From: Candidatus Hebobacterum abditum
GTDB lineage: Bacteria; Armatimonadota; Hebobacteria; Hebobacterales; Hebobacteraceae
Assembly (NCBI GenBank): GCA_029821875.1
Contig: JALGXW010000002.1
Location: forward strand, 62,001-126,000
Direction of reading: 5' to 3'
DNA: 64,000 bases
The notes beneath the pieces are model-generated. The model was not told the origin of the DNA. It did not search any database and worked only from the letters and a program-made list of their open reading frames with translations. Positions 13,158 to 63,400 of the stretch are shown here, piece after piece (position 1 is the stretch's first letter; each line of letters begins with the position of its first letter). A program made the translations under genes and the position numbers.

Positions 13158-16100
13158 ATGCGTAGACTAGCACGACTGCTGCCATTCATCGCAATACTGC
13201 TCCTCCTTACCATCGCAGCCCTGGTGCTTCTGAGAACTGGGCCCCTGGCCGACCATATTCGCGCTGTGATAGCCAGCGAGCTCGCCAAGGCGCTCGACCG
13301 CGACGTGAGCATAGGCAGCGCGGGTTTCACATCATCGGGACGCGTGGCGTTGCACGACGTCTTGGTCCGCAACGACGACGGGAGCGCGCTTCTGAAGGCG
13401 CCCCACGTGTCGGTTCAAGTGGCGGCAGAAGGAGGCCTTCTCTCGCTGCTTTCCGGCTCCGCTGATATCCGCTCGGTGCGACTCGTGGAACCCGAACTCA
13501 CGCTCGCTCGTCGGCCTGACGGCAAGCTGACCGTGAGCGATCTGCTGGAGCGGCCGCGGGAGGCCCCACCTCGTTTCCGCGGCTCGGTGGAAATGGTGGG
13601 AGGCAAGATCACCTTCGTCGACGAGGCCAATGACGGGCTGACGACATCTCTCACCGGTGTGCGGACCTCGTTCGAGTACCCTCGCCCCGACAAGGCCGTC
13701 TTTGAAGTCGAGGTAGGGGAGAACGCAGGAATCTTCGACTTGCTCCAACTCGAGGGCGAGATCAACACCGAGACGGGTGCGACCAGCGTGGACTTCCGCA
13801 CCGCGGACGGCGTCGTCATCCCATATGTCCTCGCGCGAATCCCGGAACTGGGTTTTGGCGAGATCTCCTCGGGAACGGCGGATCTGCTGACAGGCGAGAT
13901 CAGCTTCGGCGCCGGCGAAGAAGCGGCGCTCAGGTATGATGTGACGATGCAGTTGAACGACGTCGAGGTGATCTTCCCGTGGCTGCGCCGGCCCCTGCAG
14001 CAGGTCAAGGGGGAGATGCAGGTTGCAGACGGGGCTGTGATATTCCGCAAGGTTGCCGGCACGGTTGCCGACACCTCCGTGACCGTGAACGGAGCCGTCA
14101 GGGACTTCTCTGCTCCCTACTTGGATCTAGTTATTGAGTCGCGAAGCGTCGCCTACACACAGGTCCGTGAGCTGTTGCCGGAGCTTCCGCCCCTCCCTGC
14201 ATGGCTCGTGCCCCCCGATCCGCTGGAGGTGAGCGCCACTGTGAGCGGTCCCCCACCCAATGTGGCCGTAGTCGGCAGGGCGTCCGTGGATGTCATCGAG
14301 TTCGGCGAGGTGCCCTGGCATGAACTGGTGATCGAATTCGACTACGACGATGGGCAGCTGACGGTCCGTCCCTCCGCCCACGGGAGTGCGCGCCGCTTCG
14401 ACGCAGAGGTGGAGCTAGACCTCCTGGAGCCGGCCCTGGACAGCGGAGAGTTCCATCTCACGGACGTGCCACTTTCAACCCTCGCCGAGATGGCCGGCAT
14501 TCAGGGCGATTTCAGGGGTACTGTGGGGGCTACAGTGAGCGCCGAAGTCAGCAGCGACGGCGCGTTCTCGGGGACGGTGCACGTTACCTACGAGTACGTC
14601 GAGGGCACTGCTCTCGCCAAGCTAGGGGGCGAGTTCGAGTACACTAAGGAGATGATTCTGCTCCCGGAGCTGCGCGTCTCTGGTCCCGTTGCCACGGGCT
14701 CCGTCGAGGCCGAGCTGTACCTCACGGGCGACTACAAGATCATCGACGCGAGATTCACCGAGTTGGACTTGTCGGCCGTTGGACTTCCGGCGGCACTTGA
14801 GGTGGTCCCGGGACGGCACTGTGCGCAGGTGAGAGAGGCCAAGGGACACGTTGGCGACCAGAGCTTCAACGGACACGTCGAGCTGGGCCCCGGCGAGTTC
14901 CAGGGGAGGTCCTTCAGAAGCTTCAGCGGCGACCTTGCGGTGTCGCCGAGGCAAGTCAGAGTCGCCGATCTCGACCTGCAGGTCGGCGACGGGAATTGTG
15001 CCGGCAAGATCATCGTCGATGACTGGAGGGGGCCCCGCGCAGGAGTGGACCTATCCGGCCACTTAGGCCTGACTGGTGTCGGCCTGAGCGAGTGGGTGCC
15101 CCCCGAGTTGAGAGCGATCTCGCCCAGTGGCACGGTGAGTGGCTCTGTTGACGTGGCGGGTACGCTGGCCGATCCCGTCGTTGACGTAGACCTGACCGTC
15201 GAATCACTCAGCATCGCTGGGCAGCCCCTCGATGGGGGAGGAATCGAGGCTCGCTACGAGGACGGCGGGTTGGTGGTGAAGGAAGGACACGTCGGCATCG
15301 CCGGAGCGGATCTGTCCTTTTCTGGAGGCTACGCGCCGGAGACGGGCCTCTCGCTGGAACTGGACGGCGAGGACATCGAGCTGGATGGCCTGCCAGCGAG
15401 TTGGGGCAGCCAGCTGGGCCTCGCGCTCACCGGCACGCTCACCGCCAAGGCCGACGTGACAGGCCCGCTGACAGAACCAAAGGTGTCGTTTTCCCTCGAC
15501 GCTCAGCCCCTCGGCCTGAACCAGGAGGAGTTCGACAAGCTGGCGATACGTGGTGGGTTCCAGGACTCGACGCTCCAGATCGACTCCTTCGAGCTGGCGC
15601 AAGGAGAGAGCACGATTTCGCTCTCCGGCGCGGTGAGAGCCGACGACGGGGCAATCGAGGCGGCGGCGTTGGACCTAACGGAGGTCGACATCGGCGTGCT
15701 TGCGAGGATCGCCGATCGTGCGGTGGACCGATTGGCTGAGGCTCCTGAAAGCCGCCCGCGCTCCCCGTTCGTCGAAGGGTATGACAGAGTAGTGGACCGC
15801 CTCGGTGGCCTCCCGACGGGCTCCTTAACAGCCGAGGTCCGGGGTTCGGGTTCCATCGAGAAGCCCCAGATCGACGACGCCTCCTTCAGCCTTCACGACT
15901 TCGACTTGGATGGCAGAGACATGGAGGATATTGAAGGCCCGCCGAGGGCACGAGGGCCCGATGGCGCGGTTCTCGAAGGAGCGGACCTGGACGTGTCGGC
16001 CAGCGATGAGATCGCGCACATAGCGGGGACCGCGAGCGTGTCCGCGGACGGGAGCAGTGAGGTCAAGTTCGTGCTGAAAGACCTGGACCTTCAGCGAGTC

Positions 16101-17126
16101 TATCCTCTGGCGATTCCGTACCTGACCAGTGGGACACTCAACGGCTCCCTCTGGTTGACCGGGGGTCCTGACAGTGGGGAGGTGCTGCTGGCAACACGAG
16201 CGCCCGACGAGCTGGGGGACGGCCCGCTTGTCGTCTCGGATGCCGTGTTCGAAGTGCTGGGGGGCGAGTCCGATGAGCCAAGCGCGGAGGTGGTCTTCGC
16301 GCCACAGCTCGATGTCGACATCGTCGTGGGTGAGAACGTCGAGTTCCACTACGAGGATGGTCACGAGATAATACTGCGGCGCGCCGAGGTGGAGATAGAG
16401 CCTGGACCCCTGCTGGACGTGGCGGAGTCGACGGGGCATCTGCATGTGGGCGGCACGGCCACTGGGGAAGGCGTCGAACTCACCGACGGCAAGTTCGAGA
16501 GCAGAGAGGGCGAGCTTGCTTTCCCCAACGGTACGCTGACGCTCCTACGGGCAACGGCGGACGTGACTCGGGCTGCTGGGGAGTTGCCCGTTGTCATCGT
16601 CGACGCAACGGCAGTTGGCCGTGTCGGCGATTACTACGTGTCCCTGCGGGCGACTGGGCAGGTCTTTCCATACAAGCCCGAGCCGGACTTTGGGGAGGCG
16701 CGCCCCCTGCAGCTGAGCGCGACCTCGATCCCACCTTTGGAGGAGGGCTTCGTGTTGGCGCTTCTGGGTGGGACGGTTGTGGCGCCGACACCCGAGTCTC
16801 AGTCCGACCTCGCGGGGCTCCTCGGGGATCCGACGCGGGCGCAGGGCCAAGGCGGCCAGGTAGAGGGAGTCATGGTGCCGGCTCCCTGGTCGACCTCCAG
16901 TTCCCAGGTGGGGGTCGACGTCGGGGTCTCAGGGCAAGTGCGGCTGCGGCTCGCGCAGGAACTGTCAGATCGATTTGTGATCTCATATGTTAGCTCCCTA
17001 ACGGGGGCCAGAGAGTCGCACACTCTGCGGTTCATCTACCAGATAACGCATCTATGGTCCATCGGACGGGCCGTGGATGAGTTCGAGCAGGGCCGCTGGG
17101 AGGTGCAGGCCTTCATCCCGTTCTGA
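13158..17126 (+). CDS. TamB-like translocation/assembly module protein (AsmA/DUF490 family)
   Basis: 1322 residues with one N-terminal membrane segment (about residues 7-30). Repeated beta-strand patterns run through the whole periplasmic part, as expected for a long beta-taco bridge that moves phospholipids between membranes or helps insert outer-membrane proteins. The N-terminus after the anchor (GSAGFTSSGRVALHDVLVRNDDG) resembles AsmA. The last 100 residues (VGVDVGVSGQVRLRLAQELSDRFVISY... and WSIGRAVDEFEQGRWEVQAF) match the TamB_DUF490 C-terminal domain. It begins 14 bases after lipA. It sits upstream of an ECF sigma gene and bamA, placing TamB and BamA-family partners together. Confidence 0.85.
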   Translation: MRRLARLLPFIAILLLLTIAALVLLRTGPLADHIRAVIASELAKALDRDVSIGSAGFTSSGRVALHDVLVRNDDGSALLKAPHVSVQVAAEGGLLSLLSGSADIRSVRLVEPELTLARRPDGKLTVSDLLERPREAPPRFRGSVEMVGGKITFVDEANDGLTTSLTGVRTSFEYPRPDKAVFEVEVGENAGIFDLLQLEGEINTETGATSVDFRTADGVVIPYVLARIPELGFGEISSGTADLLTGEISFGAGEEAALRYDVTMQLNDVEVIFPWLRRPLQQVKGEMQVADGAVIFRKVAGTVADTSVTVNGAVRDFSAPYLDLVIESRSVAYTQVRELLPELPPLPAWLVPPDPLEVSATVSGPPPNVAVVGRASVDVIEFGEVPWHELVIEFDYDDGQLTVRPSAHGSARRFDAEVELDLLEPALDSGEFHLTDVPLSTLAEMAGIQGDFRGTVGATVSAEVSSDGAFSGTVHVTYEYVEGTALAKLGGEFEYTKEMILLPELRVSGPVATGSVEAELYLTGDYKIIDARFTELDLSAVGLPAALEVVPGRHCAQVREAKGHVGDQSFNGHVELGPGEFQGRSFRSFSGDLAVSPRQVRVADLDLQVGDGNCAGKIIVDDWRGPRAGVDLSGHLGLTGVGLSEWVPPELRAISPSGTVSGSVDVAGTLADPVVDVDLTVESLSIAGQPLDGGGIEARYEDGGLVVKEGHVGIAGADLSFSGGYAPETGLSLELDGEDIELDGLPASWGSQLGLALTGTLTAKADVTGPLTEPKVSFSLDAQPLGLNQEEFDKLAIRGGFQDSTLQIDSFELAQGESTISLSGAVRADDGAIEAAALDLTEVDIGVLARIADRAVDRLAEAPESRPRSPFVEGYDRVVDRLGGLPTGSLTAEVRGSGSIEKPQIDDASFSLHDFDLDGRDMEDIEGPPRARGPDGAVLEGADLDVSASDEIAHIAGTASVSADGSSEVKFVLKDLDLQRVYPLAIPYLTSGTLNGSLWLTGGPDSGEVLLATRAPDELGDGPLVVSDAVFEVLGGESDEPSAEVVFAPQLDVDIVVGENVEFHYEDGHEIILRRAEVEIEPGPLLDVAESTGHLHVGGTATGEGVELTDGKFESREGELAFPNGTLTLLRATADVTRAAGELPVVIVDATAVGRVGDYYVSLRATGQVFPYKPEPDFGEARPLQLSATSIPPLEEGFVLALLGGTVVAPTPESQSDLAGLLGDPTRAQGQGGQVEGVMVPAPWSTSSSQVGVDVGVSGQVRLRLAQELSDRFVISYVSSLTGARESHTLRFIYQITHLWSIGRAVDEFEQGRWEVQAFIPF

Positions 17127-17141
17127 CGGCAAGGGCGCAGC

Positions 17142-17170
17142 TTGTCTGGCGAAGTCAAATGTGATAGACT
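17142..17170 (+). promoter_or_regulatory. Putative promoter of the ECF sigma gene
   Basis: TTGTCT (17142-17147) and TAGACT (17165-17170) are 17 bases apart in the gap after tamB. Each matches 4 of 6 consensus positions. If used, it makes a TTG at 17142 impossible as a start and supports the GTG at 17277. Confidence 0.35.
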
Positions 17171-17276
17171 CACCCACGAACTTCTTGCCTGCTTGCGTGT
17201 CGAACCCGGCAAATGCGGTGGCTGGGGAACTGGACGGAGCGGGCGAGTTCTTAGTTTGCCAAGCAGGTGTCCCTCA

Positions 17277-17861
17277 GTGGACGATCGTCCAGTCCGCGGC
17301 GACGAACACGGCGGCCGTCCGGTAACCGAGGCGTTTGATGAGCTTTTCGATGCCTATGAGCAGAAGATCTTCAACCTCGTGTACCGGCTCGTGGGAAACT
17401 ATGAGGATGCCGCCGACTTGACGTCCGATACCTTCGTGCGCGCCCTGCGGGCGTACGATAGGTTCCGGGGAGATGCTCATCCCTATACGTGGCTGTATCG
17501 CATCGCAGTCAATCTATGCAAGAACTACTTCCGGCAACAGCAGCACCGCAGCCGCGTGCACTCGTTTTCCTTGGATGCTCCCATAGACGGCGAGGAGAGG
17601 TCCAGCGCGCGCGAGATCGAAGACGAAGCGCAAGAGCCGCAGCAGCGCGTCGAGGCCAGGGAGCTCGAGAGCCAGGTTCACCGCTGTCTGCTGAAGCTGC
17701 GGCCCGACTTCAGAACTCTCATCGTGCTCCGGGACGTACAGGGCCTTTCCTATCGCGAGATAGGGGGAATACTTGGTTGCCCCGAGAAGTCCGTAAAGTC
17801 GCGTCTGTTTCGCGCTCGCAGCAAGCTCAGGGAGTTGCTCGAGCCGTACCTCGCCGAGTAG
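17277..17861 (+). CDS. ECF-type RNA polymerase sigma factor
   Basis: The product has 194 residues from the GTG at 17277. An upstream TTG would give 239, but its extra residues are not sigma-like. Region 2 is FDELFDAYEQKIFNLVYRL to NLCKNYFR, with the region 2.1-2.4 helix pattern. Region 4 is CLLKLRPDFRTLIVLRDV followed by LSYREIGGILGC and SVKSRLFRARSKL, the DNA-binding helix. An acidic linker separates the two. No anti-sigma gene is adjacent, unlike most ECF systems. It lies between tamB and bamA, so control of envelope genes is a reasonable guess. Confidence 0.85.
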   Translation: MDDRPVRGDEHGGRPVTEAFDELFDAYEQKIFNLVYRLVGNYEDAADLTSDTFVRALRAYDRFRGDAHPYTWLYRIAVNLCKNYFRQQQHRSRVHSFSLDAPIDGEERSSAREIEDEAQEPQQRVEARELESQVHRCLLKLRPDFRTLIVLRDVQGLSYREIGGILGCPEKSVKSRLFRARSKLRELLEPYLAE

Positions 17862-17925
17862 CCGGAGTGGCCGGGTCGAGACCGGAAACGGCACAGAGCA
17901 GTAACACGCTTGGTTTCTGGAGGAA

Positions 17926-19968
17926 ATGATGCGTCGCGCGTGCCCCTTTGTGCTCTTCTCTGCCGTCGCCATGCTGTCGGCCATAGCCTCCGCGGGTGTC
18001 TGCGCTGCTCAGGCCGATCCGCCGGCCGTGGAGGCGGAGGTAGTCGAGGTCGAGCCTCAGGCTGCAGAGGAGCCTGAGGCCCACTTCGAGGGGGATGAGC
18101 CGGCGCCGGGAGAGGCCGAAGTCGCGACAGTGGAGGAGCCGACGACAGAAGAGGCCGAACCGCTGGCGATGGAGGATGCGACTGCAGGCGAGACAGAACC
18201 TCCGGAGGCAGACGAGGAGAGCGAGTGGCGGCCGCCAACGCCGGACGAAGGGACGGGTCTTGGGGAGGCGGATGTCGGGCCGGCGGAGGGGGAGGAGTTG
18301 GAGGCCCCCGTGCAGGTGCCGGCTCCCATCGTGAGCATCGAGGTCGTGGGCAACGAACTCGTGCCGGAGGACGAGATCTGGCAGGGCATCGGGAGCGAAG
18401 TGGGCGGACCCTTCTCTGAGGGGCAGGTGGCTCGTGACCGGCAGACGGTGCTCGCCCTGGGGTGGTTCGAGACGGTCTCGGTCGAGCGCGAGAGCGTTGA
18501 GGACGGCATTCGCCTGGTATTCCGTGTGACCGAGAATCCCGTTGTCAGTGATGTGCAGTTCGAGGGTGTGAAGGTGCTGGCCCCCGACGACTTGCTGGGA
18601 GTTATGAACACCCAGGCGGGGCAAGTCTACAACGCCCCCCGCCTCCTCGAGGACGCACATGAGATTGAGCGACTGTATCGGGAAGAAGGCTATATCCTGG
18701 CTATGGTCCTCGAGCCGAGCATGAGCCTAGACGGCGTCTTGACTCTCCTCATTGCAGAGGGCGAGATCGAAGATATCAGGATAACCGGGAACACGCACAG
18801 CAAGACGTATGCCATCCGGCGCTATATGCGAACGCGACCTGGCGAGGCCTACAACGATGGGAAAGTTGCTCGGGACGTCGCCAGGCTGACTGCGCTCGGC
18901 TGGTTTGAGACAGTCAGGAGAGCTGCCGAGGTCGGAACCGAGCCGGGCCGAGTCATCGTCGTCATCACGGTCGTCGAGAAACGTCGCACCGGGATGGTCT
19001 CCGTCGGCGGCGGCTATAGCTCTGTGCAGGGCCTCGTGGGTTTCATCGACCTGACGAAGGGCAATCTCGGCGGGAACGGGCAGGCCGTCAGCATAAGGGG
19101 GGAGTTCGGCGGCCGTACCAGCTATGAGTTCGGGTATCACCATCCCTGGATCGCGACCCCCGAGACGACGCTCAACCTTGGCGTGTACGACCGGCTGATA
19201 CTCCGCGAGGCCTTCGTGACCACGCCGGAGGACGAGCAGCTCAGCATACTGTATGACGAACGGCGCACCGGGGGCAGCATCACGTTCGGCCGGCCTCTGT
19301 CCGACAGAACGAGGGTCTTTCTCGGCTTCAGGTCCGACGATGTGTCGGTATCTGGGGTGTCGGAGGAAGAGGAAGAGCATCTCACCGGTCCGGCCTTCGA
19401 TCCCAGGAAGGTGCGCAGCATTACGTTCGCAGCCGTGAGCGATACGCGCCGAGAGACTTACAACCCAAGGGGAGGCACGTATCAGCGTCTGTCGGCGGAG
19501 TTCGCAGGCGTGATCTTCGGTGGCACCGAGTTCAACAAATACGTGCTCGACGTGAGGCGGTTCTACCCGATAGGAGGGAAAAGCACGGTGGCGGCGCGTC
19601 TGTTGCTGGGGACGACGACCGGCGAGCCTCCGTATCTTGAGCAGTTCCTGGTCGGCGGGGGGGAGACTCTGCGGGGCTACCGGAATGACCGTTTCGTCGG
19701 GACGAATATGGCGATCCTCAACACTGAGTATCGGCTCCCTATGGGGGAGAATCTGCTGGGGGTCCTCTTCGTTGACGTGGGCGATGCCTGGGGCCGCGCT
19801 CTCGAGATCGACTCGGGTACTGGCGACGCTGTCCACGAGTCGTTCAAGGCTAATGTTGGCTACGGTGTCGGCGTGCGAGTGCGGACGCCGATCGGGCCCC
19901 TCCGCCTCGACCTCGGGTTCAGCGAAGAGGGGACGGAGACGCACTTCGGAGTCAGACAGTCATTCTAG
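17926..19968 (+). CDS. bamA: BamA-like outer-membrane protein assembly factor (Omp85 family)
   Basis: 680 residues; ATG at 17926 after CTGGAGGA (an adjacent ATG at 17929 is equally possible). Signal peptide about 1-29. Residues 31-133 are an unusual acidic, Pro/Ala-rich stretch. Three POTRA domains follow (about 136-207, 210-285, 287-360), each with the F/Y-x-G...V pattern, for example VSIEVVGNELVPEDEI. The 16-strand barrel fills the rest: GETLRGYRNDRFVG holds the RGY motif of the L6 loop, and the end GVRQSF is the typical C-terminal strand with terminal Phe. It inserts beta-barrel proteins into the outer membrane. Proteobacterial BamA has five POTRA domains. Confidence 0.92.
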   Translation: MMRRACPFVLFSAVAMLSAIASAGVCAAQADPPAVEAEVVEVEPQAAEEPEAHFEGDEPAPGEAEVATVEEPTTEEAEPLAMEDATAGETEPPEADEESEWRPPTPDEGTGLGEADVGPAEGEELEAPVQVPAPIVSIEVVGNELVPEDEIWQGIGSEVGGPFSEGQVARDRQTVLALGWFETVSVERESVEDGIRLVFRVTENPVVSDVQFEGVKVLAPDDLLGVMNTQAGQVYNAPRLLEDAHEIERLYREEGYILAMVLEPSMSLDGVLTLLIAEGEIEDIRITGNTHSKTYAIRRYMRTRPGEAYNDGKVARDVARLTALGWFETVRRAAEVGTEPGRVIVVITVVEKRRTGMVSVGGGYSSVQGLVGFIDLTKGNLGGNGQAVSIRGEFGGRTSYEFGYHHPWIATPETTLNLGVYDRLILREAFVTTPEDEQLSILYDERRTGGSITFGRPLSDRTRVFLGFRSDDVSVSGVSEEEEEHLTGPAFDPRKVRSITFAAVSDTRRETYNPRGGTYQRLSAEFAGVIFGGTEFNKYVLDVRRFYPIGGKSTVAARLLLGTTTGEPPYLEQFLVGGGETLRGYRNDRFVGTNMAILNTEYRLPMGENLLGVLFVDVGDAWGRALEIDSGTGDAVHESFKANVGYGVGVRVRTPIGPLRLDLGFSEEGTETHFGVRQSF

Positions 19969-20000: not shown

Positions 20001-20657
20001 ATGGCAGCGAGAAGCCTGCATGCTCTGGCGTCCGCGGCACTGTCCATCACACTCCTCGCGGTGGGGACTGCCTGGCCGGAAGATGAAGCCCCCAAGTGGG
20101 GCGTCCTCGACATGGTGAGGGTGAGGGCCGAGTACCGACAGATGCGGGAGCTCAACCAGGAGTTCCAGCAGTTCCAGTGGGAGCAGGACCGCCAGCTCCA
20201 GGAGAGACACAAAACGCGGATGCTGACAGACACGGAGCGTCAGGAGTATGGCGATCTGTCGGCGATGGCCGCGCCGACCGCGACTCGGTCCGAACGACTC
20301 AAGGAGCTCGAGGAGTTGTCCAACGAGCGGGAGCGGCGGCTCTTCGAGCTGCGGCAGAAGGAAGAGCGGACCCCGGAAGAGACAGCGGAGCTCGACGAGC
20401 TCAACCCGCGCTACGAGCGACGGATGCGCGAGCTGGCCGCTCTCCAGGCGGAGTTCCAAGCTGCCAGTAACGCGAAGTTGGAGGAGTTGTCCGCGCGGTT
20501 GCAGAGGAACCTGGAAGAGGCCGTCAAGGAGGCCGCCGAAGAGAGCAAGCTGGTGTTGGTCCTGGTGAAGGACTCGGTTCTCTATGGGGGCCTCGATATC
20601 ACGGACGCTGTGCTCAAGGACCTCAACGCCGAAGCTGAGAGCAGCCCATCGGAGTGA
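20001..20657 (+). CDS. OmpH/Skp-like periplasmic chaperone
   Basis: 218 residues with a signal peptide (about 1-27). The rest is charged and strongly helical, with long Glu/Arg/Leu heptads forming the coiled-coil arms of the Skp family. It starts KWGVLDMVRVRAEYRQM, analogous to the I-x-Y-V-D strand of OmpH. It would hold unfolded outer-membrane proteins for BamA, 32 bases upstream, and precedes lpxD, the standard bamA-skp-lpxD order. The coiled-coil middle contains several EERTPEETAELDEL-like repeats. It is longer than E. coli Skp (about 160). Confidence 0.8.
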   Translation: MAARSLHALASAALSITLLAVGTAWPEDEAPKWGVLDMVRVRAEYRQMRELNQEFQQFQWEQDRQLQERHKTRMLTDTERQEYGDLSAMAAPTATRSERLKELEELSNERERRLFELRQKEERTPEETAELDELNPRYERRMRELAALQAEFQAASNAKLEELSARLQRNLEEAVKEAAEESKLVLVLVKDSVLYGGLDITDAVLKDLNAEAESSPSE

Positions 20658-20719
20658 GTGGATGACCTAGCGCGGCGGGGCGCGGGCGGCGCCACGAGCG
20701 CTTGCCGGGGTGCGAGCGA

Positions 20720-21757
20720 ATGACCCTGCGGGAGCTGGCGGACACTCTCAATGCAGAGCTAGTCGGAGCGGCGGGGCACGAGCAGGTGCACGGCGTCTCC
20801 GGTCTCGATGGCGCGGTGCCGGGGTGTGTGGTATTCGCCGAGAACGCGCGCCATCTCAATCTGGCTGAGTCGGGGCCGGCTCTGGCCGTCATAGTGGGGC
20901 CGGAGCTCCGAGAGTCGGGCAAGCCGCTGCTGGTTGTCGCGAACCCGCGGCTCGCGTTCGCCCGCGCGATTGGGGTCATGCACCCGCCGCCCCGATTGGC
21001 CCCCGGCGTCCATCAGACCGCGCTGATCGGGGAAGGGGCCGAACTTGGCGACGAGGTGGCAATCGGCCCCTACGCGATCGTCGGCGAGGGCGCGCGGGTC
21101 GGCCGAGGCACGCAGATCCACAGCCTTGCATCGGTCGGCCGGAGCGTCAGGATCGGGGATGACTGTGTGATCTTCCCCCATGTTGCCCTGTACAACGGCG
21201 TCGAGGTGGGAGCGCGGGTCGTAATACACGCGGGAGCCATCGTCGGCAGCGCCGGCTTCGGCTATGTGTGGGACGGCGAGCGGCATGTCTGGATGCCCCA
21301 CGTCGGTACGGTCGTGATCGAGGACGATGTCGAGATCGGCGCGAACGCGGCCATCGATCGCGGGACGACCGGCGCGACGAGAATCGGGAAGGGCACGAAG
21401 ATAGACAATCTCGTGCAGATCGCCCACAACACAGTCATCGGCGAGAAATGCCTGCTGGCAGGTCAGGTCGGGATATCTGGCAGCGTGACGCTCGAGGATG
21501 GGGTCGTGCTTGCCGGCCAGGCAGGGGTGAGCGATCACATCAGAATGGGTGCGCGCGCGGTAGGCGCGGCCGGCGCAGACATTATCAGAGATGTCCCCCC
21601 GGGCGAGGTAGTGCTCGGTCGTCCAGCGAGGCCCATCAGGCAGCAAATGAGGATAGATGCCGCGGCCGCGCGGCTGCCGGAGGTGCTGCGCGAGCTGCGG
21701 GCGTTGCGCAAGAGAGTGGCGGAACTCGAAGAGCGACTCGGGGAGGGCAGCGGCTAG
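20720..21757 (+). CDS. lpxD: UDP-3-O-(3-hydroxymyristoyl)glucosamine N-acyltransferase
   Basis: 345 residues, starting at ATG 20720; a TTG upstream adds only a few residues. The N-terminal uridine-binding domain (TLRELADTLNAELVG) precedes a left-handed beta-helix of hexapeptide repeats such as IGPYAIVGEGARVG. AHNTVIG contains the catalytic His of the family. The C-terminal helix (LPEVLRELRALRKRVAELEERL) is the acyl-carrier-protein binding or trimer coiled coil. It catalyses the third step of lipid A synthesis, which supports an LPS-type outer membrane. Its TAG stop shares the palindrome CTAG with the convergent GH38 gene stop. Confidence 0.95.
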   Translation: MTLRELADTLNAELVGAAGHEQVHGVSGLDGAVPGCVVFAENARHLNLAESGPALAVIVGPELRESGKPLLVVANPRLAFARAIGVMHPPPRLAPGVHQTALIGEGAELGDEVAIGPYAIVGEGARVGRGTQIHSLASVGRSVRIGDDCVIFPHVALYNGVEVGARVVIHAGAIVGSAGFGYVWDGERHVWMPHVGTVVIEDDVEIGANAAIDRGTTGATRIGKGTKIDNLVQIAHNTVIGEKCLLAGQVGISGSVTLEDGVVLAGQAGVSDHIRMGARAVGAAGADIIRDVPPGEVVLGRPARPIRQQMRIDAAAARLPEVLRELRALRKRVAELEERLGEGSG

Positions 21758-62168: not shown

Positions 62169-63400
62169 CCTGCGGGCCTCAGCCCTACGCTCGCGAAGCT
62201 CACGCACGATTGCGTCTGCGGTTCGGTCGCCTGCTTGTAGGAGAGCAGGCGGCCTTCCTTTACGGGGAGCGACCGTAGGAGGGCGTAGATGCAGGGGAAG
62301 CCGCAGACGTTGTAGCGGTCTTGCACTTCGGCAACGGTGAAGTACAGGTTCTCTGTGTCGCCGCGCTGAGCCCTGTCCAGAACCGCCATGTCGTGCCTGC
62401 GCGCCAGATCGAGATGGGCCTGGGTGAGGGGAGGGGGCTGGCCGAACCGCGCCCCGATGTGGCTCAGGTCGGCCGAGGCGATGAGGGCTATGCGGCGGTC
62501 ATCGCCTGCGAGAGTGTCGCGCAGTGCTTCGAGAAAGCCGTTGACGGATCCCTCATCTGCTGGGTTGACGAATTCACCATTGCGCCGATGGTAGCCGCCG
62601 CAGAGGATGGGCACGATCTTCGGCGGCTCCTCCTCCGCGTGATACAGGAAGTGGAGCAGCACGGCCTGGAACTCGACCGAATGCTCGTCGCGATGGATGA
62701 ATTCGTCGGCGAAGACATCGAAACTCGCGGCGTTGGCGAGCCGCGCGATGATCTCCTCGTCGGTCTCCAACGCACCGAAGGGAGTCTCGAAGGGCTTGCG
62801 CGTGAGAATGAAGGGTGACTCGCGGCTGTTGTGTGCGGTGCCCAGGATCACCGCGACGTCCGGCCGGGGCGTCTCCCGGAGGAGCCTGTAGGCGAGGGCG
62901 TACGCGTCGGCGGCGTTGTTCATGTCGTAGTGTGGTGCAATGAGCGTCGGCCGCCGCTCGTCCAGCGCAAAGTCGTTGGGAGGGCTCGCCGCCTGCAGCG
63001 TCGGCTCCCACGCCGCCACGAAGGCGCCGGCGCCTTCGTCGTACGATCGCCCGGCGTGTGCTGGGGCGCGGGTGGACCCGGAGCGGAATTCGGCCTCGAT
63101 TTCTGCCACGAACTTTCGGAACCGGTCGGTGTCTAAGAAGAGAGCATCGTCGAGCTGCTGCACGAGCTCGTTGATCCTGTCGGTGGTGATCAGCGAGCCG
63201 AAGCGGCGCACATAGCTGACCTGGGCCTCCCGGACAGTGTGGGCCCCATCGAACTGAGCGATGAGGAACGCGATGTCCATCGGGACCGCGATCTCGCTCT
63301 CGGAGAGGCGCAGCGGGTCGCGCAGCACGACGCGCTGACCCGCGGGCGTCTGCACCGGGAGCATGTCGAGAGGTCTCAGTTTCGGCCGTTCGTCTGGCAT
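62165..63400 (-). CDS. MEMO-family protein (AmmeMemoRadiSam system protein B) with PqqD-like N-terminus
   Basis: 411 residues from ATG 63400, chosen because the upstream frame is not homologous. Residues ~10-90 (MLPVQTPAGQRVVLRDPLRLSESEIAVP, FLIAQFDGAHTVREAQ) resemble a PqqD/peptide-chaperone-type winged helix. From about residue 140 the MEMO fold: LIAPHYDMNNAADAYA, AVILGTAHNSRESPF, DEHSVEFQAVLLHFLY, LIASADLSHIGARFG. Its metal ligands (His, Asp) are in these blocks. Function is not established; family members occur with AMMECR1 and radical SAM proteins, neither in this window. Its stop shares a CTAG palindrome with the receptor stop. Confidence 0.85.
   Translation of the reverse strand: MPDERPKLRPLDMLPVQTPAGQRVVLRDPLRLSESEIAVPMDIAFLIAQFDGAHTVREAQVSYVRRFGSLITTDRINELVQQLDDALFLDTDRFRKFVAEIEAEFRSGSTRAPAHAGRSYDEGAGAFVAAWEPTLQAASPPNDFALDERRPTLIAPHYDMNNAADAYALAYRLLRETPRPDVAVILGTAHNSRESPFILTRKPFETPFGALETDEEIIARLANAASFDVFADEFIHRDEHSVEFQAVLLHFLYHAEEEPPKIVPILCGGYHRRNGEFVNPADEGSVNGFLEALRDTLAGDDRRIALIASADLSHIGARFGQPPPLTQAHLDLARRHDMAVLDRAQRGDTENLYFTVAEVQDRYNVCGFPCIYALLRSLPVKEGRLLSYKQATEPQTQSCVSFASVGLRPAG

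Follow-up and report, generated by a model that had tools for sequence, protein, structure and literature searches.

In Escherichia coli, bamA is part of the rseP-bamA-hlpA(skp)-lpxD-fabZ-lpxA-lpxB operon, a member of the sigma-E regulon (PMC2731931), and the sigma-E gene itself, rpoE, is known to be positively autoregulated (PMC6358824). Co-transcription with the gene for an anti-sigma factor was an early hallmark of extracytoplasmic function (ECF) sigma factors but is no longer required of them (PMC8103513). HrpL and the SigE protein of Streptomyces, for example, are ECF sigma factors without an associated anti-sigma factor, and both are under the control of another regulator (PMC8999054). 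Here we describe an ECF sigma gene that directly precedes bamA in Candidatus Hebobacterum abditum (Armatimonadota; assembly GCA_029821875.1, in the following G000), on a stretch of 64,000 nucleotides (nt) that we analyzed in its entirety and refer to as the window (contig JALGXW010000002.1, positions 62,001 to 126,000, forward strand). An earlier note on this DNA had correctly recognized an ECF sigma gene between tamB and bamA, and had taken it for an insertion by which a set of envelope genes is broken. Our analysis points instead (we estimate a probability of about 0.77) to a phylum-typical ECF sigma factor that heads a sigma-bamA-skp(-lpxD) unit, is served by putative tandem promoters, and would engage in positive feedback via an ECF-type promoter of its own.

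The junction between the sigma gene and bamA is found throughout the Armatimonadota. We compared the best matches to the sigma factor in 60 relatives, 59 of which had a BamA match, with the positions of BamA, and found that in 47 of these 59 genomes, representing 25 of 27 families, a sigma orthologue immediately precedes bamA in the same orientation. In a collection of named genomes, BamA was encoded directly downstream of the sigma gene at 33 of 80 loci; the titles of these linked loci read Armatimonadetes/Armatimonadota, Hebobacteria, WS1, Zipacnadia or Fimbriimonadia/-ales, three read just 'bacterium', and linked locus L118, titled Bacillota, is identical in sequence to relative G006. No match to the window's BamA was present within 2.5 kb at 40 of the 80 loci, none of which is titled Armatimonadota, and the remaining seven end within 400 nt. 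In a tree of 100 ECF sigma factors (59 linked to bamA, 41 others), the two labels changed three times, compared to a mean of 31.9 changes when they were shuffled. The sigma gene is hence retained in most relatives, while its absence from them had been named in the earlier note as a finding that would speak against its proposal.

The gene order downstream of bamA is conserved to different degrees. We examined the 25 linked loci of the named collection in which BamA is complete and the sequence extends far enough (2.5 kb). A Skp match was located no more than 700 nt from bamA in every one of them; LpxD was found in 13 at distances of up to 2.5 kb, typically about 2 kb, and directly after skp in two members of the window's family. 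Since Skp is constant and LpxD is present in 13 of 25 loci, sigma-bamA-skp is the apparent old core of the arrangement and lpxD its looser member. The upstream neighbor of the sigma gene is TamB in L128, L130, L133, and L150, and a different gene in L135, L143, and L146. Judged by this gene order and by the tree, the sigma gene is an inherited, phylum-typical component that probably heads a unit for outer-membrane assembly, and not an insertion. In family f7 (G016:C49, G030:C4, G043:C148, G054:C1), we also noted from the coordinates a second Omp85-type gene that is divergent from another ECF sigma gene. The window itself contains the following features.

13158 to 17126, plus strand: tamB-like gene with a DUF748/AsmA-like N-terminus and a TamB C-terminus (Pfam TamB, 1.8e-9; DUF748, 5.6e-12)
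17142 to 17170, plus strand: candidate sigma-70-type promoter TTGTCT-17-TAGACT with an extended -10 (TGA), kept in 7/7 loci of the family
17178 to 17204, plus strand: ECF-type promoter GAACTT-N15-GTCGAA, putative target of the sigma factor encoded behind it (motif, alignment)
17277 to 17861, plus strand: ECF sigma factor gene, 194 amino acids, regions 2 and 4 only (Pfam, NCBIfam)
17926 to 19968, plus strand: bamA (POTRA and Omp85 domains); signal peptide followed by an acidic low-complexity stretch
20001 to 20657, plus strand: skp/ompH-like gene for a periplasmic chaperone (Pfam OmpH, 1.9e-10)
20702 to 21757, plus strand: lpxD (NCBIfam TIGR01853, above cut-off); start codon uncertain, TTG in the list of open reading frames (ORFs)

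The four genes from sigma to lpxD are all read from the same strand and are separated by gaps of 64 nt (sigma-bamA), 32 nt (bamA-skp), and 44 nt (skp-lpxD); lpxD is followed by a convergent GH38 gene. In the BamA protein, a long acidic stretch rich in Pro and Glu is located between the signal peptide and the first POTRA domain (within 17926-18330).

The product of the sigma gene matches Pfam Sigma70_r2 (E 1.3e-19) and Sigma70_r4_2 (E 1.3e-16) and scores above the cut-off of the NCBIfam model for the sigma70-ECF superfamily. Region 2 (residues 23-90) and region 4 (residues 133-184) are joined by a linker of 42 residues, below the limit of 50, which makes the protein an ECF (group 4) sigma factor by the published definition (PMC8103513). 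Its likeliest start is the GTG codon at 17277, with a TAG stop at 17861, because the similarity to the proteins of close relatives begins at this GTG; the TTG at 17142 chosen by the ORF caller is too far upstream. With 143.9 bits against a cut-off of 236.15, the protein is not RpoE by the score of the equivalog model TIGR02939. Its closest solved relatives by sequence come from other organisms and include sigma-H (6in7; E 1.8e-32) and sigma-E (1or7; E 5.2e-31), which we take to be from Pseudomonas and E. coli, respectively. Each of these two sigma factors has a dedicated anti-sigma factor.

The earlier note had assigned the sigma gene a promoter of its own, and the proposed elements TTGTCT (17142-17147) and TAGACT (17165-17170) are indeed present with a spacer of 17. 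They score weakly: a consensus scan that required nine of 12 positions listed no promoter between 16900 and 22000. The corresponding block, TTG-n-TGnTAGACT, is conserved in the five aligned genomes of the family and was also found in G005 and G007, i.e., at 7/7 family loci, and is by its motif a sigma-70-like promoter with an extended -10. The proposal was incomplete, however, since the same alignment revealed a second conserved block, GAACyy-n-GTGTC, which in the window begins after a further seven bases and takes the form GAACTT-N15-GTCGAA (17178-17204; that is, GAAC-N17-GTC), combining the AAC -35 and the GTC-type -10 of an ECF promoter. Both blocks are present in G005 and G007 as well, where they are positioned further upstream, and six of the seven family loci carry the full ECF-type motif. 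Two other candidates in this region were discarded. The promoter GGAACT-16-TTCTTA (near 17227), first picked by eye, is not conserved in the family alignment. As for a riboswitch or a structured leader in the tamB-sigma interval, no Rfam match reached gathering scores there, lax thresholds yielded two matches far below gathering, and the fold z was 0.28.

The ECF-type site precedes the whole sigma-bamA-skp-lpxD run, which is probably co-transcribed. In the window, neither GAAC-N17-GTCnAA nor nAAC-N17/18-GTC[T/C]AA was found immediately before tamB, bamA, skp or lpxD, so that the shared motif anticipated in the earlier note for the envelope genes comes down to one site before the sigma gene. 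Such a single site fits one putative operon and not a motif common to several promoters.

The motif recurs at bamA-linked sigma genes of distant relatives. In the first set of genomes, AAC-N17-GTCnAA was present at 15 of 50 loci; outside the window's family it was found upstream of the linked sigma gene at nine of 43 loci from eight families (mean of shuffled sequences 0.15), and three further non-family loci carry a form with an 18-nt spacer (N18). As a second set, we took from the named collection 20 linked loci that share no 60-base probe with the first set. Here, 16 of 20 loci matched at N17, compared to none or one for any other spacer length between 12 and 23, one on the minus strand, and a mean of 0.07 (maximum 1) in shuffled sequences. 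The base before AAC tends to vary by clade, being G in the family of the window, T in f4, C in WS1/Zipacnadia, and A in Fimbriimonadia; AAC and GTC-n-AA themselves were prescribed by the search pattern. Among the 28 of 30 sigma loci of G000 that were checked, only the bamA-linked one has an upstream match to GAAC-N17-GTC. From the recurrence of the motif at a fixed N17 upstream of the sigma gene (16/20), we infer that the sigma factor transcribes its own unit, and positive autoregulation is the best explanation of this pattern. The sigma-70-type promoter would then provide basal expression of the unit, the ECF-type promoter AAC-N17-GTCnAA would be recognized by the sigma factor itself, and the resulting feedback would raise the level of the sigma factor together with those of BamA, Skp and, in the window, LpxD.

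A number of observations weigh against such a self-driven unit. Seven of the 59 genomes have bamA without a sigma match in the approximately 3 kb fetched upstream (G015, G024, G037, G041, G042, G050, G060), one (G055) has the sigma gene without bamA behind it, and four whose bamA or sigma gene is at the end of a contig (G001, G004, G007, G014) are undecided and are counted on this side. The linked sigma factors form a single branch in just 2% of the bootstrap trees. Within the family, the motif of G006 misses by one base (GTCCGA), and outside it 34 of 43 loci, including all of f3, f7, f17, f18, f20, and f23, are without the N17 form (three of them have N18). The motif was noticed on visual inspection of some of the loci that belong to the first set, which leaves the 20 named loci as the only clean test, and many of the 16 matches there come from related Fimbriimonadia and are not independent events. 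Finally, the motif is generic for ECF sigma factors, and its recognition by the linked one is a prediction.

This last point bears on an alternative in which the sigma gene is driven by sigma-70 or another regulator, in the manner of HrpL and SigE, and the ECF-type promoter serves a different ECF sigma factor of the cell. Transcriptionally regulated ECF sigma factors without an anti-sigma factor do exist (PMC8999054), the sigma-70-type element is conserved before the sigma gene at 7/7 family loci, and G000 has 30 sigma region-2 matches as well as ECF motifs of similar form at other places, such as the TAAC-N18-GTCTAA that precedes another sigma gene on contig C37. We nevertheless consider this alternative unlikely, since the motif accompanies the bamA-linked sigma gene in other classes as well, with a constant spacer but with a base preceding AAC that differs from clade to clade, as expected of co-evolution with the linked sigma factor. 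That a stray or mobile sigma gene recently entered and broke an envelope operon could not be excluded from the window alone; with the linkage conserved across the phylum (47/59 genomes, 33/80 named loci) and the linked sigma factors clustered in the tree, a recent insertion is highly improbable.

Another possibility, compatible with positive autoregulation of the unit, concerns the brake on the sigma factor. The earlier note had rightly remarked on the missing anti-sigma gene next to the sigma gene: the gap of 64 nt to bamA is too small to hold one, and the upstream gene is tamB-like. At the 46 of 50 loci that could be measured, the next long ORF begins a median of 34 nt (range -23 to 165) after the sigma stop codon, which leaves no room for an anti-sigma gene in between; in seven of the 46, the first possible start of the next ORF, chosen mechanically, precedes the sigma stop. 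The upstream genes scanned at seven distant loci were of the TamB, JAB, CoA-binding or outer-membrane efflux type. There is hence no co-transcribed cognate anti-sigma gene at the locus, and no RseA or RseB was seen among the inspected neighbors of the sigma gene, with no search made for RseA-type and other anti-sigma families. An anti-sigma factor encoded elsewhere in the genome could still be the main brake, which we consider somewhat less likely than not. Co-transcription with an anti-sigma gene counts among the hallmarks of ECF sigma factors (PMC8103513), and one zf-HC2 match of G000 (L012; C52:96272) has no listed sigma gene adjoining it; the other six of seven zf-HC2 matches lie, by their coordinates, beside or within other sigma genes. 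On reading the orphan match, we suspected a second Cys motif, and it is a possible anti-sigma factor. Overall, the likeliest brake is either a distant anti-sigma factor of the membrane or regulation acting at the sigma-70-type promoter.

Motifs of the same general type occur more widely in the window's family. GAAC-N17-GTCNAA is in most of eight family genomes no commoner than its reversed control (48 versus 43 in G000), with the exception of G004 (17 versus 6). GAAC-GTCTAA sites with spacers of N17/18, in contrast, are in excess over the reversed control in all eight (48 versus 5 in G000), and this reflects a strong over-representation of GAAC-N18-GTCTAA (43 of 50 matches in G000 have N18). 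Most other genomes of the phylum have no such excess; exceptions are G041 (18 versus 5), G014 (9 versus 3), and G029 (11 versus 5). An off-by-one pattern, GAACYT-N14, gave five sites in seven genomes versus five in the reversed control and was kept as a wrong-spacer control, and a site at 63110 in the window was dismissed because on reading it lies antisense within a coding frame. Of the ORFs downstream of the sites, 37/44 start with a segment resembling a signal peptide or membrane span (by a simple rule applied without a control set), and nine of 40 scanned contain S-layer-homology domains. The N18 sites of G000 (L223-L262) precede genes for secreted, S-layer-homology, beta-propeller, A2M, and VIT/VWA proteins. 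They probably represent a family-level ECF regulon of surface proteins that is separate from the sigma-bamA promoter and whose owner sigma factor we leave unassigned.

An N17 site stands before a gene for a GspE/PilB-type ATPase in the five family genomes covered (G000, G001, G002, G003, G006), which were found through the pattern itself (L240, L286, L287, L288, L289); on reading, an inverted repeat follows this site in several of the five. A second ECF sigma gene of G000, on contig C37 (C37:29942), overlaps a zf-HC2 anti-sigma gene (L299:2299-3701). Its own promoter is TAAC-N18-GTCTAA, and the TAAC-N18-GTC type also precedes the orthologues in G001, G002, and G012; TAAC-type sites are not over-represented. 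At E 1e-25, no orthologue of this sigma factor was found in G003, G004, and G006 (91, 55, and 74% complete), genomes that nonetheless keep the excess of sites (17 versus 4, 9 versus 1, and 10 versus 4). Reciprocal best hits in G000, G003, and G006 exist for five sigma genes, including the one linked to bamA. AAAC-type sites in family f5 showed no clear excess (5 versus 6, 9 versus 13, 10 versus 5). A further sigma gene in L307 (G002), L320 (G006), and L321 (G003) has GAACTT-N16-GTCTAA about 500 nt downstream of the start of region 2. One might picture a bamA cluster with its own sigma factor as a unit that amplifies itself with no anti-sigma factor involved. Operon structure would couple the dose of the sigma factor to BamA, and the unit might in addition control a larger set of surface and secretion genes (the type II/IV secretion ATPase gene, S-layer-homology proteins); we regard this wider picture as speculative and rather doubtful.

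The resemblance to sigma-E control of outer-membrane biogenesis without an RseA-type partner, as suggested in the earlier note, holds: the observation made there is confirmed and its interpretation is half right. As in E. coli, the order bamA-skp-lpxD in the window stands behind a predicted ECF-type promoter, whose -35 GAACTT is contained in the GGAACTT of sigma-E (PMC8103513), and the positive autoregulation known for rpoE (PMC6358824) would apply to the window's sigma factor as well. The window differs in having the sigma gene itself where E. coli has rseP, and its sigma factor, below the RpoE equivalog cut-off, has no linked RseA/RseB. It shares the lack of a linked anti-sigma gene with HrpL and SigE, but unlike these two, which are under another regulator, it has an autoregulatory-type promoter and linkage to bamA. 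Published counts give 30 rpoE-type genes in a Fimbriimonas genome (PMC4072686), and many ECF sigma factors are mentioned for Chthonomonas (PMC4959169). Two of the closest named relatives, L119 and L120, bear the name Hebobacteria; a paper on this group reports lipopolysaccharide genes, and the words 'sigma' and 'BamA' do not occur in its main text (PMC10290634). In the part of the literature covered by our search, we found no description of sigma-bamA linkage or of such envelope regulation in Armatimonadota.

Control of bamA-skp-lpxD by sigma-E was already known from E. coli. Our data suggest that the Armatimonadota may control the building of their outer membrane in an E. coli-like manner with the parts arranged differently. 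An ECF sigma factor wired into the bamA cluster of another phylum with lipopolysaccharide genes suggests that this type of control is either old or has arisen twice, and AAC-N17-GTCTAA provides a ready marker for tests of envelope regulation in Armatimonadota.

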